A stretch of 22,130 bases of DNA from a virus. The notes below the pieces were generated by a model. It had not been told where the DNA came from. It was given only the letters and a program-made list of their open reading frames with translations, and searched no databases. The stretch spans positions 1 to 22,130 of the IMG/VR virus record IMGVR_UViG_3300033571_013011; one strand, 5' to 3'. Below are positions 797 through 21,824 of this stretch, piece by piece; positions within the stretch are counted from its first letter, which is position 1; each line of letters begins with the position of its first letter. Position numbers and translations under genes: made by a program.

Positions 797-1161
797 AAAT
801 CTATTGGACATATTCAAAACCTACACTGAGACCCAGCGAGGTCCATGCCCATGAAAAGGCAAGAACAAGGTTATCTACTGAGACATTCCATATCGGAGGT
901 CTGGGAAGAACACCCTTCTTTACGCATTGTATTACTGAACAAGGCTATATGCACGTTCTTATTCCTTCGGCCTCAGATATACACATCGCCTTGATTGGTG
1001 GTGTGGACGAGGAATACCGGATATGCAATACAGCAACAGTAGATCAGCTGCTGACATTATCAAATTTGGTACGATTTTATCAGTCCCTTGGATATAATGT
1101 AGAAGAAGGAGACTTAATTAATTTTGACTTACAACAATGGCTAAAAGCAATAAACAAGTAA
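793..1161 (+). CDS. N-acetylmuramoyl-L-alanine amidase-2 relative, probably inactive
   Basis: 122 residues, GTG start overlapping the previous stop as GTGA. The middle (HIALIGGVDE, then T-V-D-Q-L-L-T-L-S-N-L-V-R-F-Y) follows the 'GICYIGGVD...T..Q...L..LL..L' core of phage type 2 amidases of the T7-lysozyme fold, and the end (NFDLQQWLK) resembles their closing '(CP)xFDVxxWL'. The zinc ligands seem lost: the N-terminal VHCSAT-type histidine becomes WTYSKPT, the HxE/HRD segment is missing, and the C-P before FD is L-I-N. So it looks like an amidase fold that has shed catalysis and now binds or regulates. The family assignment is inferred from memory of the pattern. Confidence 0.6.
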   Translation: MKIYWTYSKPTLRPSEVHAHEKARTRLSTETFHIGGLGRTPFFTHCITEQGYMHVLIPSASDIHIALIGGVDEEYRICNTATVDQLLTLSNLVRFYQSLGYNVEEGDLINFDLQQWLKAINK

Positions 1162-1325
1162 TCGAAGAAGAAGTTATCAAACTTCAGAAGTTAATGTCAT
1201 GGTGGGAGTATTACACCGCCATTGATAATCCTATCGAGGCAAACAAAGCTCAGAAAGAAATTGAAGAACAAAAAAGAAGAATCAGTGAACTTAGAAAAAC
1301 TCTCGGAGTTCCTAAGAGTAAATAA
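1137..1325 (+). CDS. small coiled-coil protein upstream of terminase
   Basis: 62 residues, rich in K, E and Q, and almost entirely predicted helical (heptad-like from VIEEEVIKLQKL to RRISELRK). The ATG lies 25 bases inside the preceding gene, and the 3' end overlaps the next gene in another frame. No family recognised. Position directly before the terminase genes suggests a packaging or virion-assembly accessory, or simply a phage-specific small protein. Confidence 0.6.
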   Translation: MAKSNKQVIEEEVIKLQKLMSWWEYYTAIDNPIEANKAQKEIEEQKRRISELRKTLGVPKSK

Positions 1326-1608
1326 GCTGAGTGAAGACGATGCGATTGAAAGACTTAAACTGCAAGATTTTGATCCTGCTAAGGATTTCTATGCGACTCT
1401 TGTGTCGGCCTCGAAACAATTAATGGACTCCGTTAAGGATAAGAGTTTGGATCTAGATGATGCTTATCAGAAAGGTCTGTTTCAACTGCTCCAGGCAGGA
1501 GATAAAATTAATAAAAGTTTAAAACTTGCAAAGCTAGAAGCATACCCTGAGGAACAGAAAGAAGATGATGATGCTTCATTCCTGGACAGGGTTAAAAGCC
1601 GCAAATGA
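1285..1608 (+). CDS. putative terminase small subunit
   Basis: 107 residues if the GTG at 1285 is used (preceded by purine-rich AGAAGAATCA); an alternative TTG at 1222 would add 21 basic residues but overlap the previous gene by 104 bases. The protein is acidic and helical (KLSEFLRVNKLSEDDAIERL, later a QLLQAGDKINKSL helix). Its stop overlaps the terminase ATG as ATGA. Gene order and size match small terminase subunits, which recognise the packaging site, but I see no definite helix-turn-helix signature, so this is a positional inference. Confidence 0.6.
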   Translation: MNLEKLSEFLRVNKLSEDDAIERLKLQDFDPAKDFYATLVSASKQLMDSVKDKSLDLDDAYQKGLFQLLQAGDKINKSLKLAKLEAYPEEQKEDDDASFLDRVKSRK

Positions 1609-3425
1609 AGAAGAGTAAATTTGTATATGATGAATGGTTTGCCAAGTATGGTCTGAGCCCCAACGCAACCAAATCTGAGAAGGATAAATGGTGGGCACAA
1701 GAACGTGAGTATTGGATCAATGGTCGCTTCGGGCTAACCGGACCTCATTACTTTGCTCTGACTCAAGGCTTTGTAAAAGATGCCAGGGGTTTCAAAAAGA
1801 GACCGGTCTGGCGAGATATAGATGAGCTGATCTACGAGGGTTATATGGAAGCCCGTAGAACCAACCATGATTTGTTTGTAACTAAAAGGCGAGAAGTTGG
1901 TCTCTCGTTTGTGTTTGGTGGCATTATACCACTATGGATTGCAATGACCAATCCGGGTTCAACATCTCTAATTACTTCTGCCGATAAACAGCGTCTGACA
2001 GCTTTATTTAAAGATAAGACTCGTGTAGTATATGACGAGTTCGATGAGTATGCCAAGCCCGGTATCGTATCGACTCGACAGGAAGGTTATCTGCACCTCG
2101 GCAGAAGAGATACTAAGACAGGTTCTGTTACCGGCTTGGACTCCCAGATTATTACAAAAGAAACTGTCGATACTCCTACAGCGTTTGAGGCATATCGTGC
2201 CATGCACATTTTCATTGACGAGTGTATGCTGCATCCTAAGGCTGACCAGGTTTACAAATCAGCTCAAGCTAGTACGAAATCTGGCTTTATCAAGGTAGCC
2301 CCGATTGTAATCGGTGGTAGTGCCGGTGAAGCTACATCTATCGGACAGAAGTTAGCTAAGACGTTGTGGGATAATGCTGATGCTCTAAAGATTCTTACTA
2401 TCTTTCTTCCTGGTAACCAAGGAATCATGGAAGCCCCGGAGCTCGATGCGAATGGCAAGGAGACAGGGCGCATTCTAAACTTCTGTCCCAATGGGTATAG
2501 CGATGAGAAAGCTGCAACCGAATGGATATTGAAGACCCGGGACACGCTAGATAAATTAGAGGATAAAAGTTATCTGAACTCATTTATCAAACAGTACCCC
2601 CTCGAGATTCAAGAAGTTTTCTCGGTTAGTGGGCATGGTGCTTTCCCTAAGGTTATCATGGATAAATTGGACACTCAGGAGAGAATTATTTTATCATCCC
2701 GGCCTCCGATCGATAGATCCTATCTGCTGAGAGATTACTCCGGGGAGATAATTAAAAAGGCTGACGCATCTAGTGCAATGCATTTTTTAGAAAATCCTCA
2801 TCCGGACCACACCTACATTGCAGGGATTGACCCTATTCCGTTTAACTCAAAAAATATGGGAGATGGTTCTAAACAATGTATAGTAATTAAAGATATTGAT
2901 ACCAATAGGTATGTGGCATACTATACCGAAAGGGACTCAGATCCGGATCAGATTGTCAACAATATGATTCTCATGCAGGAGTACTACAATAACGCAGTAG
3001 CCATGATAGAAATTAACCGGGGTGGTGTAGTTAAACAGAAATACAAGGATGCCGGTAAGATACATTTGTTGGCAAAGAAACCTATCTTCCTGGGCAAAGG
3101 ATTCTGGAAGGACGATGATTCTGTTGGCTATTATAAAAACGATATTACGGCTGAGAGAGGTAATTCTTATCTGATAGATTACCTAAAAGTATATACCGAA
3201 GATATATGGTTTTTGGAGATGGTTTTAGATTTAAAAAATTACCTCGTAGATAATACGGATATTGCTGATGCTATGGTAGCTTGTGAGATTATGCACAAGA
3301 ATATTGTAAAGAAGTTCCAAAAGAAAGCACCTCAAGTTCAGGAATCTAAGGAGATTCCTGTTCTCGAATTTCAAGGTGGTCGGTACGTACGAGTTTGGAA
3401 AAAAGTACGTATAGAAAAATCATAA
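1605..3425 (+). CDS. terL: terminase large subunit (ATPase and nuclease)
   Basis: 606 residues, the usual length for a phage packaging motor. An N-terminal ATPase carries a deviant Walker A at 94-101 (KRREVGLS, R-x-x-G-x-S type), Walker B at 201-206 (HIFIDE, D205/E206) and a coupling segment near S239. The C-terminal RNase H-like nuclease shows the expected acidic triad: D409 in AGIDPIP, E469 in AMIEINRGG, and D552/D555 in TDIADAM. It cuts concatemeric DNA and pumps it into the prohead. It is the last rightward gene of this block and ends 6 bases inside the convergent leftward gene, with no recognisable terminator between them. Confidence 0.95.
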   Translation: MKKSKFVYDEWFAKYGLSPNATKSEKDKWWAQEREYWINGRFGLTGPHYFALTQGFVKDARGFKKRPVWRDIDELIYEGYMEARRTNHDLFVTKRREVGLSFVFGGIIPLWIAMTNPGSTSLITSADKQRLTALFKDKTRVVYDEFDEYAKPGIVSTRQEGYLHLGRRDTKTGSVTGLDSQIITKETVDTPTAFEAYRAMHIFIDECMLHPKADQVYKSAQASTKSGFIKVAPIVIGGSAGEATSIGQKLAKTLWDNADALKILTIFLPGNQGIMEAPELDANGKETGRILNFCPNGYSDEKAATEWILKTRDTLDKLEDKSYLNSFIKQYPLEIQEVFSVSGHGAFPKVIMDKLDTQERIILSSRPPIDRSYLLRDYSGEIIKKADASSAMHFLENPHPDHTYIAGIDPIPFNSKNMGDGSKQCIVIKDIDTNRYVAYYTERDSDPDQIVNNMILMQEYYNNAVAMIEINRGGVVKQKYKDAGKIHLLAKKPIFLGKGFWKDDDSVGYYKNDITAERGNSYLIDYLKVYTEDIWFLEMVLDLKNYLVDNTDIADAMVACEIMHKNIVKKFQKKAPQVQESKEIPVLEFQGGRYVRVWKKVRIEKS

Positions 3426-3767
3426 ACGATAATTTATCTGCCACAACTCTAAATAGGCACACATTATATCGATAGTTCTATCGGAGATTTCGTTGTTCTC
3501 AATATGTGCTGGTATGCGTACCATTCGAGAAGCTGTTCTCATTTCAATATAACCATCTTTATACTTTGTTCTAAACCTTTTCTTTAGTGTGGGTATGACA
3601 ATCTGATAACGATGCTTTACATCGTAGCTAAAAGCTAATCTAGAATGCAGCAATTCATACCGGAGAGCCCGGAGGATAACCCTTAAATCAATTCCATGGG
3701 GTGGAATGTTTAATATTACAGTAGAGAAAGCTGGGTCGGTTGTATAGTCTGGATCAATTTCTGACAT
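3420..3767 (-). CDS. hypothetical protein, last gene of leftward operon
   Basis: 115 residues, moderately basic, no recognised domain. The middle (LRVILRALRYELLHSRLAFSY) looks like an amphipathic helix; the C-terminus is helix-rich. The start overlaps the DNA polymerase stop region by 52 bases, so it is translated from the same message. The 3' end overlaps the terminase gene tail to tail: the shared hexamer TCATAA gives TAA to terL and TGA to this gene. A role linked to replication is suggested only by position. Confidence 0.75.
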   Translation of the reverse strand: MSEIDPDYTTDPAFSTVILNIPPHGIDLRVILRALRYELLHSRLAFSYDVKHRYQIVIPTLKKRFRTKYKDGYIEMRTASRMVRIPAHIENNEISDRTIDIMCAYLELWQINYRL

Positions 3768-5644
3768 TCTAATTCAAAAAATGCAAAGTTTAAATTATTC
3801 CAATCAAAATCAGTTATCTGATTAAATGGCACGGTCTGAAATCCTTCGCAAAGATGATGTTCTCTACCATCCTTATTAACCTTTAGCGAGGTGCCTCCGG
3901 ATTTAACAGGAAGATAGCGATATATCTTGCCAAAGTTAACTCTCTTTTCCTGAGTCCCATCCAAATACACAAAGTCTACAGTCCATCCGGGTGTGGCCTT
4001 GTATCTTCCACAAAAGTCCAATATATCTTTGTGCTCACGGATTGTTTTTTCGACCGGAGTTCCATTGACAAAGTATTCTCTCACAGCCTTGGGTATAATC
4101 ATGAATGTATTATCCTTATGCCAATCCTTTTTGGTTTCAAAGGCCCCTTTTTCTTTTATCTTTCCGCTTGTCGATACAGCAATGTAATTATTTACATCAC
4201 GAATAATCATTTTGCTATACTCAGCGTATTCAAGCGTGAGCTTGGTTTCCTGCTCCCACTTTTTGCATACAGCAAGTATGTGACCTTCTGAATTGTATGG
4301 CATACTGATAGTCACACCATCGGTATTAACTTGTAATAAAGATGCTCCGGCTTCCACAAGGGCTTCGACCAACATAGTAATAAGGAGTTGCCCATTAACC
4401 GTTACAGCGAAGAAAACAAATGGATCATAGAAACACGACACATCCGATCCTGTCTTACCAAATACTCCGTTCAGCGCAAGTTTTAACGCATCGGAAGTTA
4501 ACTTGTCTCCGTCAACCTGTGCCTTGACTCTTTCGTTGAAAATGTCATTGTATACGTTGACGAAAACATCTTGGTCCATCTGCCTGGGATGCAGTCTGTT
4601 CTGAATAAAAAGGTTTGGATAATAAGATTTAACATCGATGTCAAGAATCTTATGAGTTTTGGTTGACTCGTACACCCCAGGAGTAACGCAGCCGTGTATA
4701 CCGCCTACTCCATAATCCAAATGGAGTCCGGCATAGTTGATGGAGAACGAGAAACTTTTCTTAACCTGAGCTAACTTGCGAACAGCGATATTGTTGGCCT
4801 CGAATTTTTCTGCCAGCTCATTAGTGGACATAGAAGTTACAATACCTTCTACAAAATTCTGTAGGTAATTGCTCGAACTTGTGGTCTGTCTCATCAGGCC
4901 CAATAGATACTTTAGCTTTGGGTCTCGGAACTTGACATACGGAAAGATGATATCTTTCAGTGGCACATCAGCTCTTTTACCTCTGATCTGAGATAGCTCC
5001 CGGATACTAGTACCCATGGCCTCAGATAGATACTTCAAAAATATGTTCTCTCCAATAACTACATCACTCTTATTTATGACCTTGAGTTTGTACTTCTTAC
5101 CAATCTGTTTGCGGAGATCTATCTTCTCCTTGCACATAGCATAGAACTGTGCTGTGAAGCGGACATCGTTCCGGTTATACTCAATCAGTCTGCTCAGTTT
5201 ATGCTCATCGATTGTTTCGGTATGGTGCATGGGCATATCCATTACATTATCCCAACCACAGGAAACTTCTAATGCTTTGAGTGAAGTACGCCTAGCTTTG
5301 TTGTCATAATGGTTGAGTAGAAATAAGTCGAGTTGAGGAATCAATTCTTCTACGTATTGTTTTTTCTCCTCACTGATTATGCTCTGAGCCCGATTATAAA
5401 TCTTCTCAGCAGTTATCCTATCACTATTCCATATGTAATGCAGCACAGGCCAGTCAAAATGAATATTGTTAAAGCCTACCATGCCGTACTTATCTTTTCT
5501 TAGTTTTTCTAAATACGCTACCAATTTATCGGTATCGTTCTGCTTATCCCAAATTACAAACAGATTTTCCTCTTGGGTCTCAGGATTATAATCCATGTAG
5601 GTAAAGCAGTTCGAGAATGTTTCTATATCGTATATTACTATCAT
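3716..5644 (-). CDS. family B DNA polymerase with 3'-5' exonuclease
   Basis: 642 residues from the ATG at 5644, chosen because it gives MIVIYDIETF, the exonuclease start, and makes a 4-base ATGA overlap with the upstream gene; a longer frame adds 21 unrelated residues. Exo I is D6-I-E8, Exo II is the N-x-x-x-F-D ending at D64, and Exo III is Y156-N-R-N-D160. Palm motif A is D335-I-D-V-K-S-Y-Y-P, motif B is K388-x3-N392-x-x-F-G396, and motif C is V-N440-T-D442-G. Motif C is NTD rather than DTD; the second, metal-binding Asp is kept. Length is short for family B. A primase-helicase is encoded next door, so RNA priming is more likely than protein priming. Confidence 0.93.
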   Translation of the reverse strand: MIVIYDIETFSNCFTYMDYNPETQEENLFVIWDKQNDTDKLVAYLEKLRKDKYGMVGFNNIHFDWPVLHYIWNSDRITAEKIYNRAQSIISEEKKQYVEELIPQLDLFLLNHYDNKARRTSLKALEVSCGWDNVMDMPMHHTETIDEHKLSRLIEYNRNDVRFTAQFYAMCKEKIDLRKQIGKKYKLKVINKSDVVIGENIFLKYLSEAMGTSIRELSQIRGKRADVPLKDIIFPYVKFRDPKLKYLLGLMRQTTSSSNYLQNFVEGIVTSMSTNELAEKFEANNIAVRKLAQVKKSFSFSINYAGLHLDYGVGGIHGCVTPGVYESTKTHKILDIDVKSYYPNLFIQNRLHPRQMDQDVFVNVYNDIFNERVKAQVDGDKLTSDALKLALNGVFGKTGSDVSCFYDPFVFFAVTVNGQLLITMLVEALVEAGASLLQVNTDGVTISMPYNSEGHILAVCKKWEQETKLTLEYAEYSKMIIRDVNNYIAVSTSGKIKEKGAFETKKDWHKDNTFMIIPKAVREYFVNGTPVEKTIREHKDILDFCGRYKATPGWTVDFVYLDGTQEKRVNFGKIYRYLPVKSGGTSLKVNKDGREHHLCEGFQTVPFNQITDFDWNNLNFAFFELECQKLIQTIQPTQLSLL

Positions 5645-5844
5645 AATGTATAAACTATGTCTTGTACTCTTATTATTCCTTCGGAAGTATAGAACTCCCT
5701 GTACCATCTTTTTCCTTCAAATACCCAACCATGCGATGTAACCGGTATGGGCTTATCGTTGTATCTAAAATATTCCGGTTTGTATTTCTCCTTCAAAGGT
5801 GGAGGGAGGTTGAATTCCTTGACCTCGAGACCACGCTTGCTCAT
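5641..5844 (-). CDS. hypothetical protein between polymerase and primase-helicase
   Basis: 67 residues from ATG 5844 (MSKRGLEVKEFN...); a start at 5883 would add 13 residues but deepen the overlap with the primase-helicase from 80 to 119 bases. The sequence has alternating aromatic/basic strands (EYFRYND, GWVFEGKRWYREFY) that suggest a small beta-barrel. Its TGA overlaps the polymerase ATG. No family recognised; placement suggests a replisome accessory. Confidence 0.7.
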   Translation of the reverse strand: MSKRGLEVKEFNLPPPLKEKYKPEYFRYNDKPIPVTSHGWVFEGKRWYREFYTSEGIIRVQDIVYTL

Positions 5845-7525
5845 CTGCGAACATATCGATCTCAGAATGTGTGATATTAGCATTGTTTAATAGATTATAA
5901 AATTTACCATCTTCACTGTATTGTCCTGTGGCACGATTGAAATCGTATTCAACCTTACCTAATTTGCCCCGGAAGTGCCACTTGATTTTTTGAATGTGGA
6001 CCTCTACCGGATCTTTAACTCCATTGTCAAATGTACGGTGTACAGCAATGCCTACATCCGGTACATTGAAGAAGTGGTGAGAACCGGATATATCGTAAAG
6101 GCGAGGTACATTGTACTGACCGTTGCTCTTATCCATCTTCCGGGGGTGTGCTACCAGAGTGACATTCACATTATTTTTAACTGCGAATTGTTTTAACTTG
6201 CGTAGCAAATTGCCAATCTTCTCGTTGCTGCTTTCTTCTCCGGCTTCCTGTTCGATATAGTTGAAAGGATCCAGGCACAGACAATCAATTCCATTGCGTT
6301 TAATCAATGTTTCTGCAATTCTCAGTAGATTATTTATGGAGTAGTCCTCAAGGGTTTCTACATTGTAAAACCAAAATGAGTTTGAGATAACTTTAGTACC
6401 AACCTCAATCTCCCTGTCATTCATTAGCTTCAGTTCTTTACCCAACAGCTGCTCAGTCATGCGAGTGATTTTCAGTGGTGCTACGTTCTCCGGACTGAAT
6501 ACTCCAAACTTCCAACCCTTGAGATGGGCCAACCGGATGAACATATAGTCGAGCCATGTCGACTTTCCAGATCCGGGGATGCCCGTAACTACAACTAATT
6601 CGCCACGATTCCATGAGATGTGGGCATCGGTCTCAGCCATATCAACGTGACTACCAATTGGATAACCATCTTTGTGGTAGGACTGAATGGTAGAGAGATA
6701 GTCCATGGCATTAGAAATCTCTGATACCGGCAGTGGCTTGGCATCATCAAATAAACGGGTAACGAAGTCCTGACCATATGCTTTGAGGCAATCGTTGGCA
6801 TCCTTTTGAGATACCGGGAATTCAACTATCCGTACATCTGAGGCCGAAAATCTACGTGCTATGTCTTCGCTCAACTTTCTGCCAGGCTCATCGTTGTCGG
6901 TGGCTAGATAGATTGTTTTATTTTCTAACAGCTCGTACACTGAGTCCAACCAATCCAAATTATTATTGTTCTTGCTAGCTCCATTGGGAACAGAGATAGC
7001 AGCGAATCCGGACTGATGCCACACCATGGTTTCTTCCTCACCCTCACAGATAATTACATAATCTTTATCCTTAACAGAATCGATATTGTAAGGTATCTTG
7101 CGAGCATCCTTGACCATCTTGAAATGCTTCTCTCTGGTTTTGAACTTGATGTTTATCAGTTCGCCATCCATAAAGTAATTGAAGCAAATCACCGGGTGTT
7201 CTTTCTGAGTCTGAGGCATCCACTCCACAGCCTGAGAAACACCGAAATGCTCAACTGTTTCTTTCTTTATACCACGTAACGAGAACCAATCGAATATATT
7301 CTGTGAGCTGACCACAGGCTTGGGCTCGGGCCTCACATACTGATTAACAGAACCGGACCATTGGCAGTGGTGACAGTTCCAAACCCCTTCATCTATATTC
7401 ACAGATAAGGAAGGATCTTTACTTTTCTTCCTGGAATTAGCACATTTGGGGCAGGTTGTCTTAACACTGCCGGACCACCGGTTGCGTAAATCGATTCCTA
7501 ATTTTATTAGTCTATCAGCGTTCAC
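5765..7525 (-). CDS. Twinkle/T7 gp4-type primase-helicase
   Basis: 586 residues with a GTG start overlapping the upstream stop (GTGA). In order: a zinc finger with C25-x2-C28 and C51-H-H-C54; a TOPRIM primase-like domain with E161 in CEGEEE and D210-N-D212 in ATDNDEPG; then a RecA-like hexameric helicase with Walker A GIPGSGKS (315-322), E346 in FSPE, Walker B LCLDP (D419), a sensor histidine (LVAHPRK, H460) and a C-terminal arginine-finger region. It should unwind the fork and, if the zinc finger and TOPRIM are active, lay down RNA primers for the adjacent polymerase. The zinc finger of this family sets the primase recognition sequence, relevant to the GGGNCTCAG motif reported below. Confidence 0.95.
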   Translation of the reverse strand: MNADRLIKLGIDLRNRWSGSVKTTCPKCANSRKKSKDPSLSVNIDEGVWNCHHCQWSGSVNQYVRPEPKPVVSSQNIFDWFSLRGIKKETVEHFGVSQAVEWMPQTQKEHPVICFNYFMDGELINIKFKTREKHFKMVKDARKIPYNIDSVKDKDYVIICEGEEETMVWHQSGFAAISVPNGASKNNNNLDWLDSVYELLENKTIYLATDNDEPGRKLSEDIARRFSASDVRIVEFPVSQKDANDCLKAYGQDFVTRLFDDAKPLPVSEISNAMDYLSTIQSYHKDGYPIGSHVDMAETDAHISWNRGELVVVTGIPGSGKSTWLDYMFIRLAHLKGWKFGVFSPENVAPLKITRMTEQLLGKELKLMNDREIEVGTKVISNSFWFYNVETLEDYSINNLLRIAETLIKRNGIDCLCLDPFNYIEQEAGEESSNEKIGNLLRKLKQFAVKNNVNVTLVAHPRKMDKSNGQYNVPRLYDISGSHHFFNVPDVGIAVHRTFDNGVKDPVEVHIQKIKWHFRGKLGKVEYDFNRATGQYSEDGKFYNLLNNANITHSEIDMFADEQAWSRGQGIQPPSTFEGEIQTGIF

Positions 7526-7740: not shown

Positions 7741-8080
7741 ATTTCAATTGTTTATAAAATTCTTCTACTGCATCTCTTTTAGAGAGAAACTCTTTTCCAT
7801 CTACATACCATATTTCCTGGTCTTCTATCCACTCCGGGTACATTCTGGTTTTAAATAGATGAATGAGAACTTCTCTCTCTACTGTGATGTATTTAACTAT
7901 CCGTCCTTTTAGCTCTGGTACTAATGTACCTAAGTCCATTCCCTTCATTATCTGAGGCCCTCCGGGAAAGTCAATCATTACATACTGATTGCTAGGCCAC
8001 CCGAACTGTGATTCAGAACGATAATGAGACCAAGTCCCAACCAATTTGATTAGGTTGGGACTCAGCTCATCAAAGCTCAT
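7727..8080 (-). CDS. hypothetical protein
   Basis: 117 residues from ATG 8080 (MSFDELSPNLIKL), which leaves 4 bases after the upstream stop; an upstream ATG at 8113 would add 11 low-complexity residues and overlap by 29 bases, so the start is uncertain. The protein is mixed alpha/beta with G-W-P-S-N-Q-Y-V-M-I-D-F-P-G-G in the centre and an acidic C-terminal helix. No family recognised. Confidence 0.75.
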   Translation of the reverse strand: MSFDELSPNLIKLVGTWSHYRSESQFGWPSNQYVMIDFPGGPQIMKGMDLGTLVPELKGRIVKYITVEREVLIHLFKTRMYPEWIEDQEIWYVDGKEFLSKRDAVEEFYKQLKYEQS

Positions 8081-9199: not shown

Positions 9200-9495
9200 A
9201 CTATTAAACCTTGATTTTCTTTTTCAAACTTCCACGTTTTAATTGCTGCCTTCCAATTCTTCATCTTATTCTTACCAATCATCCAACCTTTGGACTCATA
9301 AAAATTAAAGAATCGTTCAGCATTTTCTTTAGGGTCACGCACCTTCTGAGACCGAAGATAATCCTCGACCTCCTGGAGGGTGGGCAGATCAAAAGATTTG
9401 TTAGTCAATGCCTTGACTAGATCTTCGTTAGACCTCCAATGCGGATCCACCTTGTTCAACAAGTGAACTAATACAGTCCGGATATTTTTCTCCAT
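9196..9495 (-). CDS. replication-module protein with C-terminal F-Y-[ED]-x-K-G-W domain
   Basis: 99 residues. The second half, A-E-R-F-F-N-F-Y-E-S-K-G-W-M-I-G followed by K-N-K-M-K-N-W-K-A-A-I, matches the closing segment often found on phage and plasmid replication proteins and helicase-loader-like proteins of Bacteroidota. Here it stands almost alone without the usual long N-terminal winged-helix part. Its gene follows and overlaps the DnaA domain IV-like gene by 68 bases, so the pair may form an origin-binding/helicase-loading set. The functional link is inference. Confidence 0.75.
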   Translation of the reverse strand: MEKNIRTVLVHLLNKVDPHWRSNEDLVKALTNKSFDLPTLQEVEDYLRSQKVRDPKENAERFFNFYESKGWMIGKNKMKNWKAAIKTWKFEKENQGLIV

Positions 9496-9811
9496 ATTCT
9501 TTTTCGATTGCTTTAATTATCTGACATTCTCTTCTGTACATTGTTGGCATACTTAACCAATTCTCCACGAGCTTTAGGGAGTTAATAATGGTTGTGTGAT
9601 TGCGGTGGCCCATCTGATTTGCAATGCTTTGCAGTGTCATATCAGCTTTGATCCGCAGGAAATAACCGTAGATGTGCCGGATAGTGACCTCATCATTCTT
9701 TCTAGTTCTTCTGTATTCCCACAATTCACGAGGCACACCCAATACTTCCTCCATACATTCGAGGATTTGCTCTTTAATCTTTCTCTGTTGTTTAGTTTCT
9801 ATCTGTAGCAT
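9428..9811 (-). CDS. stand-alone DnaA domain IV-like DNA-binding protein
   Basis: 127 residues. Residues about 5-85 reproduce DnaA domain IV: a long N-terminal helix (V-L-G-V-P-R-E-L-W), T-I-R-H-I-Y-G-Y-F-L-R, then the helix-turn-helix with the DnaA signature form M-G-H-R-N-H-T-T-I-I-N (67-77), comparable to the host LGxRDHSTVxxA. There is no AAA+ ATPase domain, so it can bind DnaA boxes but cannot form the ATP-dependent initiator filament by itself. A perfect 9-base DnaA box occurs at 19740-19748 in the control region. It may direct host DnaA, or the helicase, to the phage origin, or block host initiation. Confidence 0.9.
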   Translation of the reverse strand: MLQIETKQQRKIKEQILECMEEVLGVPRELWEYRRTRKNDEVTIRHIYGYFLRIKADMTLQSIANQMGHRNHTTIINSLKLVENWLSMPTMYRRECQIIKAIEKEYGEKYPDCISSLVEQGGSALEV

Positions 9812-10478
9812 AAATTTTGTTGTTGATTATTTTTTTAACTGTAGAGGCATAGAACACACCCCCCTTACTTCCTTTGATTCCCTTATCGTTCAGTGTTTTG
9901 GCAATGCGATACAGCGGTACGCCCTGGCGATGCATCTGTAGCACATTATCTACCACAGCCATACCCTCCGGGTCGGGGCTCAGAACACCATCTTGATTCT
10001 TATATCCAATAGGGGGATAAGGACAATAGACTTTATAATTCTTTTTGAGATTAGCTTTTACGCTCCGGGTATGCTCACCGGTAACATCAGATTGATATTC
10101 GGCAAACACAGCCATAAGATTACGCATAGCTTTTCCTGATGATCCGGATAACATAGGTTCCTCAATGGAATAGAACTTAATCTTACGATGCTCAAGCTCA
10201 GCCATGTGGATTATATTATCCTTCAAGTTACGAGCAAAGCGTGTGCTGTGCCATACGATTACAGCATTGATGCCACCCTGCCTCAGCCGGGTAAACATAC
10301 TTTGGAAGCCTGGTCGTTTGGTATTGCGACCTGAATAGCCGGCATCCTCGTAGATGTGCTCGAGCTCATAACCTTTGTCCCGGGCGTACTCTTTGATACG
10401 AGCAATCTGGTTATCTAAAGATGTGCCCTTGTCTGCTTGCATATCTGTCGATACACGAATGTAGCCTACTGCTTTCAT
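9792..10478 (-). CDS. serine recombinase/resolvase
   Basis: 228 residues. The catalytic domain has S10 in GYIRVSTDMQ, D/R residues through YEDAGYSGRN, V-I-V-W-H-S-T-R-F-A-R-N with the active-site arginines, and the long helix A-V-F-A-E-Y-Q. It continues into a recombinase domain (P-P-I-G-Y-K, then Y-R-I-A-K-T-L-N-D-K-G-I, V-K-K-I-I-N-N-K-I-Y), but ends there, without the zinc ribbon and coiled coil of integrases of the large serine type. It is therefore between resolvase/invertase and large recombinase size. It may resolve multimers, invert a segment or integrate. No paired inverted site was found in this window. Confidence 0.9.
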   Translation of the reverse strand: MKAVGYIRVSTDMQADKGTSLDNQIARIKEYARDKGYELEHIYEDAGYSGRNTKRPGFQSMFTRLRQGGINAVIVWHSTRFARNLKDNIIHMAELEHRKIKFYSIEEPMLSGSSGKAMRNLMAVFAEYQSDVTGEHTRSVKANLKKNYKVYCPYPPIGYKNQDGVLSPDPEGMAVVDNVLQMHRQGVPLYRIAKTLNDKGIKGSKGGVFYASTVKKIINNKIYATDRN

Positions 10479-10872: not shown

Positions 10873-11263
10873 CTTCTATTTCTACTATGTTTCCATCTTC
10901 ATCTATATAAATGTAATCGCTGTACTCGCTGTCGAATATCTCGTACACTTCGTTTTTGAGAGCAGTAGCAATGGTCTCTTCCAAATCATCTGAGGCCCAA
11001 TCACAAGTGACACAGTACATAGAATCAGTAGTGCCAACATCTATGAACATATTTTCTTTGGGTTCGGCCTCAGCAAATACTTCTACATAATCACTTGCTT
11101 CTTCCTGTAGGAACTTAATGTATTCCTCCGGGGTATAGTCTGAGATATACTCTTCTGTCCACCCGGCAACAGTAAATATGTAGCGACCACGTTTGAGTGA
11201 TGGGTCGAATGGATTAAAACATACCGAACCGGTATTAGTTAATTTGTCAACTATCTGTTTCAT
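10862..11263 (-). CDS. highly acidic hypothetical protein
   Basis: 133 residues from ATG 11263 (MKQIVDKLTN); a start 10 residues earlier is possible. Strongly acidic: the last 60 residues (D-W-A-S-D-D-L-E-E-T ... D-E-D-G-N-I-V-E-I-E-D-E-E) carry few basic residues. Such charge is seen in DNA-mimic inhibitors of restriction enzymes, but it is also common among the small proteins of this block, so this is only a possibility. Overlaps the upstream 53-residue gene by 17 bases. Confidence 0.75.
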   Translation of the reverse strand: MKQIVDKLTNTGSVCFNPFDPSLKRGRYIFTVAGWTEEYISDYTPEEYIKFLQEEASDYVEVFAEAEPKENMFIDVGTTDSMYCVTCDWASDDLEETIATALKNEVYEIFDSEYSDYIYIDEDGNIVEIEDEE

Positions 11264-12499: not shown

Positions 12500-12762
12500 G
12501 CGGTAAAAGAATGATGAGTGTGGTTTTTCTTCTCCTCAATTTTGCGGAGTTTGGTTGTAATAAAGTCTGCGTAGTATGAAGTGGTTAATCCTTCGAGATA
12601 AGATGTAAGCTCTTCTTGGCTGTAGCAGTATGCCCAGGTAACCGTATTACCTGAGTCCCAATCTAAAGCCGATACTTTCCAAACTTTCTTTTTTGCCTTA
12701 GGTATTTCTACCCGGATGATACCGCCAATGGCGTACTCACCGATTTTAAATGTCTTAATCAT
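12496..12762 (-). CDS. hypothetical protein
   Basis: 88 residues. Beta-rich start (FKIGEYAIGGIIRVEIPK, K-K-K-V-W-K-V) then a helical half ending in a histidine-rich tail (KNHTHHSF). The tail could bind a metal, but no domain is recognised. The stop overlaps the downstream ATG (ATGA). Confidence 0.75.
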   Translation of the reverse strand: MIKTFKIGEYAIGGIIRVEIPKAKKKVWKVSALDWDSGNTVTWAYCYSQEELTSYLEGLTTSYYADFITTKLRKIEEKKNHTHHSFTA

Positions 12763-13927: not shown

Positions 13928-14146
13928 TTATTCGTTAATTGTTTCTACTTCTATTATGTTACAGTAATCCGGCAAGTCCATGATATGAATCCTGCCGTAG
14001 TTCATACTACTATAGTAGCCTTGGAATTCATACTGCTTAGCCCATTGTTGTAAGGCTTCGTGTGCTTCCTCGATAGTAGCATAGGTGTCGCTGAAGTGGA
14101 TGCTGAATCCATCGGGACTCAGAACATCATATTGTTTATTGCTCAT
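13928..14146 (-). CDS. conserved small protein, 'YDVLSPDGFSI' family
   Basis: 72 residues. The start Y-D-V-L-S-P-D-G-F-S-I-H-F-S-D-T-Y and the helix E-E-A-H-E-A-L-Q-Q-W are a pattern I recognise from many small genes on Bacteroidota phages and plasmids, function unknown. A GGGNCTCAG copy (14114-14122) lies in the LSP codons. The start overlaps the previous gene by 11 bases (ATGAGCAATAA). Confidence 0.8.
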   Translation of the reverse strand: MSNKQYDVLSPDGFSIHFSDTYATIEEAHEALQQWAKQYEFQGYYSSMNYGRIHIMDLPDYCNIIEVETINE

Positions 14147-15470: not shown

Positions 15471-15740
15471 TTATTTTTGTTTAAGTGAATTGTATGTAAC
15501 GCCTTCGCTGTCAGTGTAAACATTTTGTTCTACCTCAAAGTTCTCAGTCAGATACTTTATATGCTCGTCATAGATACGTTCAAATGTTTCCTCGCCTAGC
15601 TTTTCTTTGTATGGCAGGATATACCTATTATAGGTAAACGAGCCTTTCTCAAAACCACCATAGGCAAAGGCTGATTCAATCATGTTTCTGAGCCCCTTTT
15701 CATAGATGCTCTGTAACTTTTCATCAATAATGTTTTTCAT
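15471..15740 (-). CDS. hypothetical protein
   Basis: 89 residues from ATG 15740 (MKNIIDEKLQSIYEKG); the open frame extends 42 residues upstream but that part overlaps the neighbouring gene. Predicted helical, with two A-F/Y rich segments (IESAFAYGGF, ERIYDEHIKYL). No family recognised. Confidence 0.75.
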   Translation of the reverse strand: MKNIIDEKLQSIYEKGLRNMIESAFAYGGFEKGSFTYNRYILPYKEKLGEETFERIYDEHIKYLTENFEVEQNVYTDSEGVTYNSLKQK

Positions 15741-17282: not shown

Positions 17283-17999
17283 TTAGTGTTCAAGTATTAC
17301 AACTGATTTATTGCCCTTGCCCATTGTGCCTGAGCACAAGCCACATTTAGCACAATTACTACGGAAGTTCTGTTCTTCGGATGCAGGGCAGTTAACCATA
17401 CCGCTAAGCAGTTCGGGTGAAGCTACAAAGGACTTCCAACCAAGGGCACGTGCCATAGCTTCGCCACATGGTGCGTGGGTTGATGCCATAAAGTACGCTG
17501 AGTATTCGGGATAAGAAAGCCATTGATGAGTGTAGCCTGTCCAGGATTTTGCCACTGCACATATCTTTTGCACCATATCGAAAGGCACAAGGATAGGTTC
17601 GCCATAAGATCCGAAGCGGACATACTTACCCGTGCAAGCCTGGACGATATCATCCAATAGTTTGGGACTCAGATAAGGTATTGCATCGAACGTACCGTAC
17701 TCCTTACCTATAGAACGTAGGGAAGATAAGAAGCCCGTGTACTGCATCATCTTGTGAGTATAGCACGCTGATAACTTTGCACCATTACTTACACTGAATG
17801 GGCAGTCGAAACAAACTTTGCCATCATGCCCAAAGAATTCTTGCATGGTAGTCTTACGCTGTGCGACTTCGAACTGCTCACGGCTGAAATGGAAAGTTTG
17901 CACAATCTTTTCAGTGGCTGTGGCAATTTTCTTGTTACTTGTTTTGCTAAAGGTGAATAACACTATCGTGTCACCCACACGGAATACTGCTTTTTTCAT
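17283..17999 (-). CDS. cysteine-cluster phage protein, radical-SAM-like
   Basis: 238 residues. Two cysteine clusters frame the protein: C63-x2-C66 with C79 (CFDCPFSVSNGAKLSACY) and C204, C216-x2-C219-x2-C222 (NCPASEE, NCAKCGLCSG). Between them lie the very conserved-looking Y-V-R-F-G-S-Y-G-E-P-I-L-V-P (126-139) and W-T-G-Y-T-H-Q-W (153-160). This set is familiar from an unnamed phage family that resembles an iron-sulphur or radical-SAM TIM-barrel protein, without the canonical C-x3-C-x2-C. It may carry an iron-sulphur or zinc centre. The reaction is unknown. Overlaps upstream gene as ATGA. Confidence 0.82.
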   Translation of the reverse strand: MKKAVFRVGDTIVLFTFSKTSNKKIATATEKIVQTFHFSREQFEVAQRKTTMQEFFGHDGKVCFDCPFSVSNGAKLSACYTHKMMQYTGFLSSLRSIGKEYGTFDAIPYLSPKLLDDIVQACTGKYVRFGSYGEPILVPFDMVQKICAVAKSWTGYTHQWLSYPEYSAYFMASTHAPCGEAMARALGWKSFVASPELLSGMVNCPASEEQNFRSNCAKCGLCSGTMGKGNKSVVILEH

Positions 18000-18181
18000 A
18001 TGGTTTTATTTTGGGACTCAGATTCTAATTCAATTAAGGACTTTTGCACCCCATTACTATCTACTATATAGAAAGTAAGGGATGGATGATACATACATAA
18101 ATCATAGTACGTAGCCAGGGCTTCGGCTGCCGACAAATTACGGTGCGACACACTGCCGTCTAACATGATGGTATATTTCAT
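17996..18181 (-). CDS. hypothetical small protein
   Basis: 61 residues: MKYTIMLDGSVSHRNLSAAEAL, then A-T-Y-Y-D-L-C-M-Y and a strand T-F-Y-I-V-D. It looks like a small alpha/beta protein; no family recognised. ATGA overlaps with both the upstream micro-ORF and the cysteine-cluster gene. Confidence 0.7.
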   Translation of the reverse strand: MKYTIMLDGSVSHRNLSAAEALATYYDLCMYHPSLTFYIVDSNGVQKSLIELESESQNKTI

Positions 18182-18409: not shown

Positions 18410-18422
18410 GTTTTTATTATTT

Positions 18423-18719: not shown

Positions 18720-18764
18720 AATATATTGAAATTTAGGTTGTTTTTTACTTTTTGGTGCACAATT

Positions 18765-18830
18765 TCAAATAACGCCCGCCCGTATAAACTTAGCGTCTCC
18801 GCCCTCGAGGGTTGCACCGTAGCGCAACCG
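18765..18830 (-). repeat. duplicated non-coding element, copy A
   Basis: In the 195-base leader before the gene at 18719. Blocks: TCAAATAACGC, 13 variable bases, CTTAGCGTCTCCGC, 7 bases, then GGTTGC-ACCGTAGC-GCAACC, a perfect 6-base hairpin. The blocks recur in the same order in copy B at 19608-19674. Not part of any gene. Strand given as that of the downstream gene; true direction unknown. Confidence 0.7.
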
Positions 18831-18863
18831 TTTATATTTGTCGTTTGGGTAATTTGCACCCCT

Positions 18864-18882
18864 TTGCGGTAACGCTCCGCAA
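18864..18882. repeat. small stem-loop in the 18720-18914 non-coding stretch
   Basis: TTGCGG / CCGCAA arms (18864-18869, 18877-18882) around TAACGCT. It lies just after the stop of the gene at 18915 when read leftward. No T run follows, so it is not a convincing terminator. The rest of this 195-base gap holds copy A of the duplicated element and a GGGNCTCAG copy (18904-18912). Confidence 0.5.
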
Positions 18883-18914
18883 CATGGCAACTTTGCAGGG
18901 GTTGGGGCTCAGAT

Positions 18915-19385
18915 TTACTCGTTCTCAGCTACAAAGGTTAGAACCTCATTATAAGGTGTATCTAACAGCGCACGAACTTGCGCCATAACTTGTTCAGTTT
19001 CGCACGTGTTATTTTCATCTAATAGGTCACAAAACACCTCATCAGTAAGTTCGTGTTTACCGTCCCAAAAAGCGATAGCTAACAAACGTGCAAAACGGTT
19101 CTGCCCTCGTTTAGTTAGTCCGCACGTAATTCGCCCTTTAATTTGCTCGTCAATTTCAAAGGTGTTGAGCAAAGTCACACCTTCAGTTTTTATGACAATT
19201 TCAAACGGCTTGCGTAGGTCAATGCCCGCACCGTTACCGACAAGGCGCATGGTAGCAAGTACGGTGTAAAAACGGTGCGCTAACTTGCCGACAATTGCGC
19301 CCGTAGTGTGGTGTACGTTACTGTTAACAGTTACGTTGATGGTGTGCACATAAGTGCCTTGCGAAATTTCAAATGTAGTTTTCAT
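18915..19385 (-). CDS. hypothetical protein at the head of the leftward operon
   Basis: 156 residues, first gene of the leftward set. Beta-rich start (TTFEISQGTYVHTINVTVN) and a helix-rich second half with T-K-R-G-Q-N-R-F-A-R-L-L-A. Near-neutral and unlike the acidic genes downstream; codons such as ACG, CGC and GCG make it look compositionally distinct. Being first, it could be an early regulator, but no DNA-binding motif is evident. Its leader (AAAACACC before ATG) resembles those at 12076 and 15456. Confidence 0.75.
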   Translation of the reverse strand: MKTTFEISQGTYVHTINVTVNSNVHHTTGAIVGKLAHRFYTVLATMRLVGNGAGIDLRKPFEIVIKTEGVTLLNTFEIDEQIKGRITCGLTKRGQNRFARLLAIAFWDGKHELTDEVFCDLLDENNTCETEQVMAQVRALLDTPYNEVLTFVAENE

Positions 19386-19440
19386 GGTGTTTTATTTTGT
19401 TTAATTTAGTTTGGGCAACGGGGGGGGGATTGCGCCCCAA

Positions 19441-19462
19441 CAAACAAGGTCAAAATTGTTTG
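19441..19462. repeat. inverted repeat in the leader of the leftward operon
   Basis: CAAACAA (19441-19447) and TTGTTTG (19456-19462), perfect 7-base arms with an 8-base loop, preceded by a G9 run and GCGCCCC that can pair with it. Lies 56-77 bases before ATG 19385, so it may form an RNA structure in the leader. Confidence 0.5.
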
Positions 19463-19607
19463 TCACGCTTTTACGTTTGCACCCGTTACGTGGTATATAA
19501 ACATTACATTTATACGTGCCCTACGGTGTCAGCCGACTCGTCACGTATACAAGTGGTAATGTGGCAATGGCGGTAATAAATTCACTTTATATTACCTAAT
19601 TGCTATG

Positions 19608-19674
19608 TCAAATAACGCTACATTGCACGTGCTTAGCGTCTCCGCTTGTCATGGGTTAAACCGTAGTTAAACCG
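19608..19674 (-). repeat. duplicated non-coding element, copy B
   Basis: Same block order as copy A: TCAAATAACGC (identical), 13 variable bases, CTTAGCGTCTCCGC (identical, 19632-19645), 8 bases, then GGTTAAACCGTAGTTAAACC with 16 of 21 bases shared. The hairpin pairing is partly kept, one pair changing from C-G to A-T. Lies 223 bases upstream of ATG 19385. Confidence 0.7.
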
Positions 19675-19739
19675 CACGTGTGAATCTCTGTAGTATATTA
19701 AAGAACTTTGTTACCCGTGTGCATTGTTTGTCATTTGCT

Positions 19740-19748
19740 TGTGGATAA
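19740..19748 (-). promoter_or_regulatory. perfect DnaA box
   Basis: TGTGGATAA, i.e. TTATCCACA on the minus strand, the consensus DnaA box. By chance one such 9-mer on either strand of a 1.1-kb region has under 1 percent probability at even composition. It borders the most AT-rich stretch of the window, as in DNA-unwinding elements. No second perfect copy was seen nearby. Confidence 0.65.
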
Positions 19749-19770
19749 CGAATGCAAACTAAAAACAATT

Positions 19771-19795
19771 CGAAAAAAAAGTCAAGTGTTTTTCG
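19771..19795. repeat. inverted repeat CGAAAAA / TTTTTCG
   Basis: Perfect 7-base arms (19771-19777 and 19789-19795) around an 11-base loop, directly before the 21-base palindrome and 23 bases after the DnaA box. Part of the origin-like cluster; possible binding site or AT-rich hairpin. Confidence 0.6.
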
Positions 19796-19796
19796 C

Positions 19797-19817
19797 TATT
19801 TAGAACGGTTCTAAATA
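19797..19817. promoter_or_regulatory. 21-base perfect palindrome, operator-like
   Basis: TATTTAGAAC (19797-19806), central G, GTTCTAAATA (19808-19817): ten-base arms with a single-base centre. Such tight dyads are usual for dimeric repressors or initiators. No T run follows, so not a terminator. It could control the leftward early transcript or bind an origin protein. Confidence 0.7.
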
Positions 19818-19990
19818 AAAATTGGTAGTTAAGTGATTGAAAATGAATAAGTTAGCAAGCAAAAATAAATTGAAAAAAATTTTTAAGTTTTAATCAGTCC
19901 CCGAAATATAGCCCTATTAGATGGGCAAAAATTGAGCTGAAAAAAAGGGTTGAAATATACCTTTATCGGAAATATGAAGTCCAGGAGCTT

Positions 19991-20125
19991 GCGTGCGTGC
20001 GTATGCGTGCGTGTATGTGCGCCCATGCGTATGTATGCGTGTGCGTATGTGCGCTTGTGTGCCCGTGTGTGGGTGTGCGTGCCTGTATGCGTGTGGGTGT
20101 GCGTGTGTGCGTCCGGGTGCATATG
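19991..20125 (+). repeat. GT/GC alternating purine-pyrimidine tract
   Basis: About 135 bases made of GT, GC and AT dinucleotides (GCGTGCGTGCGTATGCGTGC type), with a few breaks (for example at 20022-20024 and 20055). Stretches of 31-32 bases alternate perfectly. A is nearly absent from the top strand. Sequences of this type adopt Z-DNA under negative supercoiling. Open frames across it (His-Thr repeats) are artefacts of composition. Confidence 0.85.
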
Positions 20126-20261
20126 TTGTCCATTCGTTCGAACGTGTAAGGGTGCAAATTCATTTTCGATTTATTTTATCGAATAAGTTCGAAAGGGTTG
20201 TAATCAGGCTTTTGTAGATTCGTTTTGTAGATATTTGGCTAAGCATAGGGGGGGATATTTT

Positions 20262-20325
20262 ATAGAAAAATGTCTACTTTGTGTAACGTATTATTACCCC
20301 CACCCCCCACACAAAGTTTTTCTAT
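20262..20325. repeat. long interrupted inverted repeat (hairpin)
   Basis: Left arm ATAGAAAAA (20262-20270) plus CTTTGTGT (20277-20284), split by TGTCTA; right arm ACACAAAG (20309-20316) plus TTTTTCTAT (20317-20325). Seventeen base pairs with one 6-base bulge and a 24-base loop that contains C5-A-C6. CACAAAG is also repeated directly at 20327-20333. A structured nucleic acid, for example a single-strand origin, a packaging or regulatory signal, is possible. Confidence 0.7.
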
Positions 20326-20421
20326 GCACAAAGTATCGCTTTCCACTACTTTCCGCATATTTTTACCCTGCCTGCAAAATCTGGAAAAATTCATGCACCA
20401 GGGGGGGGTCTAATTTTACCC

Positions 20422-20477
20422 CCGGGTATAGTACTACCGGGTATAATAGGGGGGGGGATTTATTTTTGCCGGGTATA
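20422..20477 (+). repeat. CCGGGTATA direct repeats upstream of and inside the promoter
   Basis: CCGGGTATA occurs at 20422-20430, 20437-20445 and 20469-20477. TAGTACTA between the first two is a perfect palindrome. The third copy begins immediately after the -33 TTTG. A run of nine G (20449-20457) separates copies two and three. This resembles a set of operators for a repressor or activator of the 20503 operon. Confidence 0.65.
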
Positions 20478-20496
20478 CATATTTATATTATATTTG
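20465..20496 (+). promoter_or_regulatory. Bacteroidales-type promoter for the rightward operon
   Basis: TTTG at 20465-20468, a 20-base spacer, then TATATTTG at 20489-20496, matching TTTG-N19-21-TAnnTTTG exactly. The gap from the last G to ATG 20503 is 6 bases, so transcription should begin at or within a few bases of the start codon. A CCGGGTATA repeat begins directly after the -33 TTTG, suggesting operator control. Confidence 0.8.
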
Positions 20497-20502
20497 TACT
20501 GT

Positions 20503-20979
20503 ATGATAGACATCGCCAAAGAGGATCGTTTAATTAAGGGCATGATAGATAGGATGCCATCTGTTGATGCCTATGACACGGTTATTTTATCTATTAATCC
20601 TGAGTACAGTTCTATTCTGTCTCAGCGAGTGGCTCATGCGGTGTCTAAGCCCAACTTCGTACCAATCATCATTGGCATAGATGTGCCGGAGGAGAAGAAG
20701 GAAGAGGAATATCTGACTTATTTCGGTGTTTCTGCAAAGACATTCCAGGTTCGTTATCACAAGGTTATTATATGTTCTACCTATACCTGTGCGTTTATGA
20801 AAGCTATTAGGGATCGTTTGTATGATATTGGGTATGAGCACGAGGATCTTTTATTCATGTCTTTGGCAGAGCATTGGGATTCGGATTTCCGATCTGATGT
20901 AGTTGGGGAGTACGTGGATAAGGAACCTATTTTCTACTGGCAAAAAGATTATGAAAAGATTACAACAGATATTAAATGA
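20503..20979 (+). CDS. hypothetical protein, first gene of right-hand rightward operon
   Basis: 158 residues from ATG 20503; a TTG at 20494 lies inside the promoter's -7 box, so it cannot be the start. Alpha/beta with strands V-I-L-S-I-N-P, F-V-P-I-I-I-G-I-D-V and Y-H-K-V-I-I-C-S-T, resembling a small Rossmann-like fold, then an acidic C-terminal half. No family recognised. The consensus promoter ends only 6 bases before the ATG. The next gene (lysin) begins 29 bases before this gene ends. Confidence 0.8.
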   Translation: MIDIAKEDRLIKGMIDRMPSVDAYDTVILSINPEYSSILSQRVAHAVSKPNFVPIIIGIDVPEEKKEEEYLTYFGVSAKTFQVRYHKVIICSTYTCAFMKAIRDRLYDIGYEHEDLLFMSLAEHWDSDFRSDVVGEYVDKEPIFYWQKDYEKITTDIK

Positions 20980-21577
20980 GAAGGGTGCTCAGCTAACCGT
21001 TGACGGAATCATTGGGGCTCAGACGTTAACCGCAGCAGATTGGTTTATTACCAATACTATTAAGAGCAGAAAATGGATTAAGCCTAAAGATGGGATTGTA
21101 TTCCTCAGAACAGATCAAGTGTTGAGCAATACCTTTGACGATTTTGCTATTGTGTACAAAGGGGGAGTATGTGTATCTATAGTACCATGTTCTACTACTG
21201 CCGGGGATAAGTATATCTTTAATCCTACTTTTTCTTATCAAGGAGTAACTGGTACTGCTATTACTGCTGAACAGCAGGTGATCGGTAGTCACCGGTTTGT
21301 TACTAATAAGAATTGGAAAACGCTGTGGCTCGGAGCCCCATACTTTATGCAGGTATTGCCTATTACTATTTGGAGAGATGGCAGCCGGGATCGTTCTTTG
21401 GATAGAGTAAATAAACAAGTAGGCCTTTTTGGAATTAACTTCCATCGTGGTGGACAGGGTTGGGCGATTGCTAACTGGTCTGCCGGTTGTCAAGTGATAC
21501 CTGATACCCATTGGTTTCAAGTAGTGAACAACTTTGTCAATGGGCAGGTGATTGATTATACTCTTATAGAAGTTTAG
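20951..21577 (+). CDS. predicted lysin: peptidoglycan-binding helix plus L,D-transpeptidase-like domain
   Basis: 208 residues from ATG 20951 (upstream in-frame start adds 16 residues of the overlapping frame). N-terminus L-Q-Q-I-L-N-E-K-G-A-Q-L-T-V-D-G-I-I-G-A-Q-T-L (4-26) is the peptidoglycan-binding repeat form VDGxxGxxT. The C-terminal domain has G-I-N-F-H165-R-G-G and N-W-S177-A-G-C180-Q-V, the H...SxGC arrangement of YkuD/L,D-transpeptidase folds, used by several phage lysins. No signal peptide, so export would need a holin. A GGGNCTCAG copy lies in the first domain. Distinct from the membrane glucosaminidase at 8705. Confidence 0.85.
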   Translation: MKRLQQILNEKGAQLTVDGIIGAQTLTAADWFITNTIKSRKWIKPKDGIVFLRTDQVLSNTFDDFAIVYKGGVCVSIVPCSTTAGDKYIFNPTFSYQGVTGTAITAEQQVIGSHRFVTNKNWKTLWLGAPYFMQVLPITIWRDGSRDRSLDRVNKQVGLFGINFHRGGQGWAIANWSAGCQVIPDTHWFQVVNNFVNGQVIDYTLIEV

Positions 21578-21824
21578 CGATCCTTTGGGCTAGGTCTACT
21601 AGACTGTGCTTGACGATGTATTGTTCTCCTCCGCTGAATATTACAGATAGGGGCTCCTTTTCTGTATTTCTTTCGTCTTCGTGTATATGGTCTATGTGGT
21701 AGAATAAGACAGGGAAGGTGGGTTCTTCATAAATTGAACTGAGACCCAAATCCTCCAGATATTCCTGGTCTTCCTCATTGCCGTTATTGGCAATTACTTC
21801 GAGTATGAGCGGTAGTCTAAACAT
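21564..21824 (-). CDS. hypothetical acidic protein convergent with lysin
   Basis: 86 residues (MFRLPLILEVIANNGNEEDQ...), acidic, with D-H-I-H-E-D-E-R-N in the middle and a C-terminal helix. No family recognised. It converges on the lysin with a 14-base overlap and no terminator, so the two transcripts interfere or are used at different times. Last gene of the short leftward operon driven from 22053-22084. Confidence 0.75.
   Translation of the reverse strand: MFRLPLILEVIANNGNEEDQEYLEDLGLSSIYEEPTFPVLFYHIDHIHEDERNTEKEPLSVIFSGGEQYIVKHSLVDLAQRIAKLL

Follow-up and report, generated by a model that had tools for sequence, protein, structure and literature searches.

Analysis of a 22,130-nucleotide stretch of viral DNA (IMG/VR record IMGVR_UViG_3300033571_013011, positions 1 to 22,130, hereafter the window), contained letter for letter in a longer record (G001, 36.8 kb) of this phage, has revealed that the word GGGNCTCAG dispersed along it belongs to a real, polar DNA signal that is shared across a phage family and is new to the literature as far as we have searched it. 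The site is short, asymmetric and biased in orientation. We surmise that this polar site is read at or near the replication fork, most likely by the TOPRIM/zinc primase-helicase of the phage to prime the lagging strand, an explanation that we hold tentatively and with somewhat less than even confidence.

The first-pass annotation of the window had counted 17 exact copies of GGGNCTCAG, nine on the plus and eight on the minus strand, and every coordinate was reproduced; 100 dinucleotide-preserving shuffles of the window held 0.23 copies on average and never more than 2. With one mismatch permitted there were 36 sites vs. 8.6 expected, and the ranking of 9-mers which that annotation had suggested as a check placed CTGAGNCCC first by frequency among the gapped 9-mers of the window. 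The seven-base core GGNCTCAG occurs 26 times (about 1.25 expected); the base 5' of this core is G in 17 copies, C in 6, T in 3 and A in none, while the base 3' of it is A in most copies. Because of these preferences on either side of the core, the true site is nearer to TT(G/C)GGNCTCAGA than to GGGNCTCAG, and the full site of ~12 bp reads TTGGGNCTCAGA, the central N being T in 129, C in 61, A in 43 and G in 42 of the pooled copies.

The earlier contention that selection must act on DNA, and its call for a codon-preserving shuffle, were both borne out: permutation of synonymous codons gave expectations of ~15 sense and ~16 antisense copies, where 255 and 145 were found (observed/expected ratio, O/E, about 17 and about 9, respectively), and the same kind of control in the window gave 13 sense copies vs. 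1.3 expected and 11 antisense vs. 0.8. This excess over permuted codons argues that selection operates at the DNA level. Non-coding DNA carries 46 copies in 48.6 kb (0.95 per kb), coding DNA about 0.76 per kb. Conservation at single positions is in line with this for two genes: at identical residues, motif bases are identical in 92% of comparisons in terL (other positions 28%) and in 90% in the primase (other positions 27%), but in only 32% in polB (27% elsewhere). The exact bases of the copy in the terminase gene (2932..2940, plus strand) are unchanged in 21 of 23 relatives, and the CGGTCTCAG copy in the primase-helicase gene (6628..6636, plus strand) is kept in 19 of 21. Since these two sites are almost fixed while most others turn over among relatives, it appears that individual sites and overall density are both maintained.

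A terminase search of IMG/VR yielded 36 loci, in most of which the motif ranks first or nearly first among enriched words. The enrichment spans one phage family with complete genomes of about 63-69 kb (three family genomes have short identical contig ends); whole records contain tens of copies each, at about 0.5-1.2 per kb, and the reversed pattern is near zero. Whether the motif might be absent from close relatives, a question raised at the first pass, is answered by its enrichment in nearly all of them. Among wider relatives, collected with profiles of primase, polymerase and terminase, almost every member has it down to a terminase identity of about 58%, a few lineages (L229, G517, G518, G520, G529 and G530) have it in weak or shifted form, and it is near or below chance in phages sharing just a distant primase (41% identity or less) or polymerase (40% or less). 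The exception is G525, which has terminase, portal, capsid, primase, polymerase, exonuclease and recombinase in common with the family at about 30-59% identity and carries 67 copies of GGNCTCAC vs. 6.6 expected. Matrices fitted by expectation-maximisation hold about 14-17 bits and find 1.0-1.7 sites per kb, with the consensus TTGGGNCTCAGA in the clade of the window and its sister clade, TGGGGNCTCAGA in the G515 group, CTGGGGNNTCAGA in the G517-G519 groups and TTGGGTCTCACA in G525 (the run on G520 slid into CTG repeats, and its result was not used). By lineage, the motif takes the forms CTGAGNCCC, CTGANNCCCC and, in G525, GTGAGNCCC. Because the consensus drifts along phage lineages, a phage-encoded reader is suggested, with a change of host as the alternative.

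The motif had been described at the first pass as spread along both strands; the spread was confirmed, but indifference to strand was not, as the orientation of the copies is organised around a ~1 kb non-coding gap between divergent open reading frames (ORFs; 19386..20502), where motif polarity flips and which is a candidate replication origin. In the window, three successive plus-strand copies adjoin this gap (17664..17672, 18013..18021 and, closest to it, 18904..18912); on its far side, the minus-strand copy at 21739..21747 obeys the polarity rule and the plus-strand copy at 21014..21022 breaks it. For 12 genomes, oriented with early genes as plus, the anchor was whichever non-coding gap was largest in the interval 1.5-11 kb downstream of the exonuclease start; this rule is independent of the motif, though it was framed once the pattern had been seen. 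Copies are plus for the first kilobases past the exonuclease gene and minus thereafter. The anchored genomes gave 43 plus and 13 minus copies in the 5 kb left of the gap vs. 10 plus and 41 minus in the 5 kb right of it (Fisher P=2.7e-9), and 27 plus/5 minus vs. 2 plus/25 minus in the nearest 2.5 kb. The right-hand orientation is retained in the late-gene arc, 20-60 kb away (29 vs. 151). Polarity concordance was 61, whereas random anchors had a mean of 8 and a maximum of 54, with none of 5000 sets matching; without G525 it was 44 over 84 sites, and G525 alone gave P=0.001 in a runs test. The genomes in these tests are related, which makes the P values optimistic. In G515 (L404-L407), where the structural block is inverted relative to the terminase unlike in other members, motif orientation goes with the structural genes.

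Orientation relative to genes also differs between early and late regions, with O/E of 20.2 sense and 15.8 antisense in early genes vs. 18.8 sense and 6.6 antisense in late genes; depletion of antisense copies is thus restricted to late genes. One of the three frames of an antisense copy contains a TGA stop, which cannot account for the difference between early and late genes. The gap itself comprises AT-rich stretches, a TG-rich tract and poly-G/C runs, and contains TTATCCACA, the E. coli-type DnaA-box consensus, at 19740..19748 on the minus strand. A TG/CG-rich low-complexity tract with a chance ORF lies at 19990-20116, and runs of G or C at 19420-19429 and around 20250-20460.

We postulate that replication would start in the gap (19386-20502) and that the lagging-strand template on both sides of it would then read 5'-TCTGAGNCCCAA-3', with GTGAGNCCCAA as its counterpart (GTGAG) in G525. 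The start trinucleotide would be CTG (GTG in the lineage most distant), after which the enzyme would read the 3' flank, at sites placed at about the spacing of Okazaki fragments. The parts that we infer are the gap as origin, the primase as reader and the site acting as a single-stranded template. Among the ideas of the first-pass annotation, priming is still the best, because the motif flips at the candidate origin as lagging-strand sites should, and because every near-complete motif-bearing genome examined encodes the primase-helicase, in which a zinc-binding/TOPRIM primase is fused to a helicase. The layout of the sites also makes lagging-strand priming our first choice, since it resembles that of phage T7: the left arm is short, the right arm long, and the density of sites similar. 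Priming in T7 begins at 5'-(G/T)2GTC-3', with a 10-nt 3' flank read by the primase as well; the 40 kb T7 genome has about 26 candidate sites, set to both sides of a strongly off-centre origin, and its Okazaki fragments measure 1-6 kb (PMC12839067). Common to both would be a phage-encoded TOPRIM/zinc primase-helicase, polarity about an off-centre origin (here a candidate), and tens of sites per genome at ~1 kb-scale spacing with a start trinucleotide and a 3' flank (PMC12839067). There remain differences, as evidenced by: 1) the motif here is about 12 nt long, with 7-8 nearly fixed bases, and strongly over-represented; 2) the trinucleotide would be CTG/GTG, not GTC; 3) polarity is incomplete 5-15 kb from the gap. 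The reason first offered for the priming idea, likeness of the GGGNC half to a T7-like GGGTC site, found no support, as the base matching the T of GGGTC is the free central N, the lagging template would carry CTGAGNCCC, and the 5'-GTC-3' core of T7 sites is not present, the complement of the motif having CTG or GTG; a T7-like GGGTC reading is therefore rejected. With a shade more reserve than for priming as such, we suggest that the phage primase-helicase may recognise an unusually long sequence (~12 nt) and may have fixed lagging-strand start sites family-wide, its specificity drifting by lineage.

Several observations weigh against priming from an origin in the gap. Primases usually recognise a trinucleotide, far less than the approximately 15 bits of this site. 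At 5-15 kb right of the gap the polarity disappears (45 vs. 42 copies), and in the late arc the coding sense is also the favoured orientation, so that effects of coding and replication are inseparable there. GC skew tracks the gene strand and does not clearly reverse at the gap. The gaps hold DnaA-type boxes at 3.2 times the density of other non-coding DNA (P=0.008); because a reversed-pattern control is raised as well, this density favours an origin there weakly. Lastly, all core proteins co-vary with the motif, so that the primase is not singled out. Even spacing of the copies, considered as a mark of Okazaki fragments, was set aside as weak and inconsistent: the coefficient of variation was below random in 7 of 10, with a combined z of about -2.3 from non-independent genomes.

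Genes that our search found in all nine near-complete genomes tested include the primase-helicase, the polymerase, a YqaJ/RecE-like exonuclease and the terminase, as well as an SSB-like (single-stranded DNA-binding) protein with a C-terminal DLPF and a small serine recombinase, and co-variation by itself cannot pick among core proteins. In the window, the primase-helicase (phrog_239), which we infer to be the reader, occupies 5765..7525 on the minus strand, and the DNA polymerase (phrog_1252) 3716..5707 on the same strand; the large terminase subunit, marker gene of the motif-bearing family, lies at 1605..3425 on the plus strand. The primase of G525 is the most divergent (44%) and has an altered zinc knuckle, and the motif of G525 is altered too (GTGAGNCCC); motif-less phages have just distant primases in common with the family, at 41% identity or less. 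A helix-turn-helix protein resembling DnaA domain IV (PF08299; 9428..9811, minus strand) is carried by almost every motif-bearing phage and by none of eight large motif-less ones, but is disfavoured as reader, because genomes that share one motif differ in the recognition helix of this protein. This protein type, whose recognition helix changes fast, was also seen in two unrelated Bacteroidota phages. The short serine recombinase (9792-10478, minus strand; catalytic domain and part of the recombinase domain), found family-wide, was pursued as a lead; it is family-specific and added nothing further. The methyltransferase encoded in the window, once offered as the enzyme whose target the motif might be, is discarded, as no homologue of its type was found in motif-bearing G515, G517-G520 and G525 and the enzyme is thus not present wherever the motif is enriched.

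Ranking second to a priming site is a Chi-like action by the recombination or end-processing system of the phage itself, possible though on balance unlikely, in which the site would slow or switch an exonuclease complex, so that phage DNA is spared and concatemer formation favoured. The polarity of the motif toward a single point would suit such a role, as would the YqaJ/RecE-like exonuclease and SSB-like protein of the family, while no AddAB/RecBCD-type helicase-nuclease was seen among the core genes, and we know of no YqaJ enzyme with a 12-bp recognition site. E. coli Chi (GCTGGTGG) is likewise an asymmetric ~8-mer, genome-wide, polar and over-represented in lambdoid phages, P1 and T5; phages without recombinases or RecBCD inhibitors over-represent it, lambdoid copies are concentrated between origin and packaging site, and it is avoided in E. 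coli by phages that encode both a recombinase and a RecBCD inhibitor (PMC3784561). Chi, however, has a host enzyme as its reader and is enriched in host DNA (O/E 2.3), whereas here sampled hosts are unenriched, phage O/E is about 10-20 and the consensus drifts by phage lineage. A 9-mer acting on a phage recombination exonuclease has a precedent in passages of PMC7496540, which describe pausing of lambda exonuclease at GGCGA(TTCT) (GGCGATTCT), an enzyme to which the RecE/YqaJ-like protein of the family may be compared; the sequence differs, and these passages describe no genome-wide enrichment in lambda. Chi, or another polar recombination or segregation site, of an unsampled Bacteroidota host is a good deal less probable than action by the phage system: phages can surpass their host in over-representing Chi (PMC3784561) and the promoter-like boxes and near-absent Shine-Dalgarno sites described below suggest Bacteroidota hosts, but no outlier near phage density was seen among about 490 Bacteroidota genomes, and computed O/E was about 1 or less, including in genomes with the top motif-to-control ratio.

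The regulator site proposed at the first pass is weakened by the organised polarity and survives as an array of the stoperator kind, which we consider doubtful, if slightly less so than Chi of an unsampled host. Here a phage protein would bind the asymmetric site as a monomer and affect transcription or pack the genome. The stoperators of mycobacteriophages are asymmetric, 13 bp long and present at 20-30 per genome; most are aligned with transcription, and their consensus drifts clade by clade (PMC6550527, PMC9283540). The motif too is an asymmetric site, of about that length, in tens of copies whose consensus drifts with clade and whose orientation in late genes is biased (O/E 19 sense vs. 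6.6 antisense). Unlike the stoperators of mycobacteriophage L5, it has many copies in genes, at a density about equal to that between genes; early genes hold both orientations almost equally (O/E 20 and 16), polarity is arranged around the gap, and the antisense run next to the gap has no transcription rationale. Nor was a repressor identified, the recognition helix of the DnaA-domain-IV-like protein being variable under one motif. We regard as very improbable a self-recognition mark for packaging, whereby the small terminase would read dispersed polar sites so that phage DNA is packaged over host DNA. A strongly conserved ~105-aa protein is encoded directly upstream of terL and the motif follows the terminase clade, but the centre of polarity is the gap and not the terminase genes, terL in the window being about 16-19 kb distant from it, and in G515, with its inverted terminase, the motif goes with the structural genes; moreover, we know of no phage with ~1 packaging (pac) site per kb. 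DNA uptake sequences (USS of Haemophilus, DUS of Neisseria) also amount to about one short word per kb on both strands. They belong to competent bacteria, whereas the motif belongs to a phage family, has polarity around a gap and is unenriched in sampled hosts.

With regard to these hosts, TAnnTTTG promoter-like boxes lie upstream of 62 of 408 genes vs. 7 in shuffles, and Shine-Dalgarno sites are few to near-absent in family genomes; because of these two features, the genomes point to Bacteroidota. None of about 490 sampled Bacteroidota genomes was enriched near phage density; the searches covered 50 named Bacteroidota, 45 of one Flavobacteriales family, 395 phylum-wide and 41 from the family of the best outlier. 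In eight genomes with a computed expectation, including those with the highest motif-to-control ratios, O/E was between about 0.1 and 1.0; the codon estimate for Pedobacter came from under 1 kb of ORFs, and base-composition O/E there was 0.56. A ~10-fold signal over the reversed control in one family proved to be a GC/codon effect of a GC-rich genome (O/E 0.8 by codon permutation). As no sampled host group is enriched, a host Chi, the form in which the Chi-like idea was first put, or a host uptake word is rejected as unlikely for the sampled Bacteroidota, from which the true host may differ. The host could not be named because no terminase homologue was found in the cellular genomes, plasmids or cultured phages searched. 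Phage tRNA genes at L046:18506-18577 and L060:1638-1711, tRNA-Gln(ttg) and tRNA-Thr(tgt), might aid in finding it.

Genome-wide polar words such as Chi, FtsK-orienting polar sequences (KOPS) and uptake sequences are few and mostly cellular; this one belongs to an uncultured virus family, persists through many coding constraints, and, through its orientation, points to a likely replication origin in genomes known from metagenomes alone. Should it be a priming site, primase specificity, usually three bases and hard to see, would become traceable through evolution, and Okazaki start points, origin and fork direction could be read straight from genome sequence. Should it be Chi-like instead, it would be a Chi belonging to the phage, not the host.

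The remaining exact copies of GGGNCTCAG in the window lie on the minus strand at 826..834 (GGGTCTCAG), 1653..1661 (GGGGCTCAG), 3950..3958 (DNA polymerase gene), 7952..7960, 10990..10998, 12651..12659 and 15688..15696, and on the plus strand at 5575..5583 (also in the DNA polymerase gene), 8057..8065, 9975..9983 and 14114..14122. Further copies of the seven-base core are found at 388..396 (TGGTCTCAG, minus), 968..976 (CGGCCTCAG, plus), 5017..5025 (TGGCCTCAG, plus), 5384..5392 (CGGGCTCAG, minus), 6838..6846 (CGGCCTCAG, minus), 6940..6948 (TGGACTCAG, minus), 9346..9354 (CGGTCTCAG, minus) and 11065..11073 (CGGCCTCAG, plus). Elsewhere, L229/L550 (G521) and L035 have scarce GGNCTCAG and raised GGNCTCCG (CGGAGNCCC), possibly a further variant of the motif, and G520 (L420-L423), where the family motif is weak, carries about 23 copies of a word of the AACCTNAGGT type that resembles a palindrome (AACCNNAGGT) vs. 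1.7 expected. An enriched 9-mer of L268 was rejected as a dispersed motif, as it is a tandem repeat at a single place (CTGTTCCGR, 9 bp, L268:5878-6115). L047:11402-11992 encodes a Cys-rich C-S-D / C-R-D repeat protein, so that L268 and L047 present cysteine-repeat genes of related appearance in two phage families.

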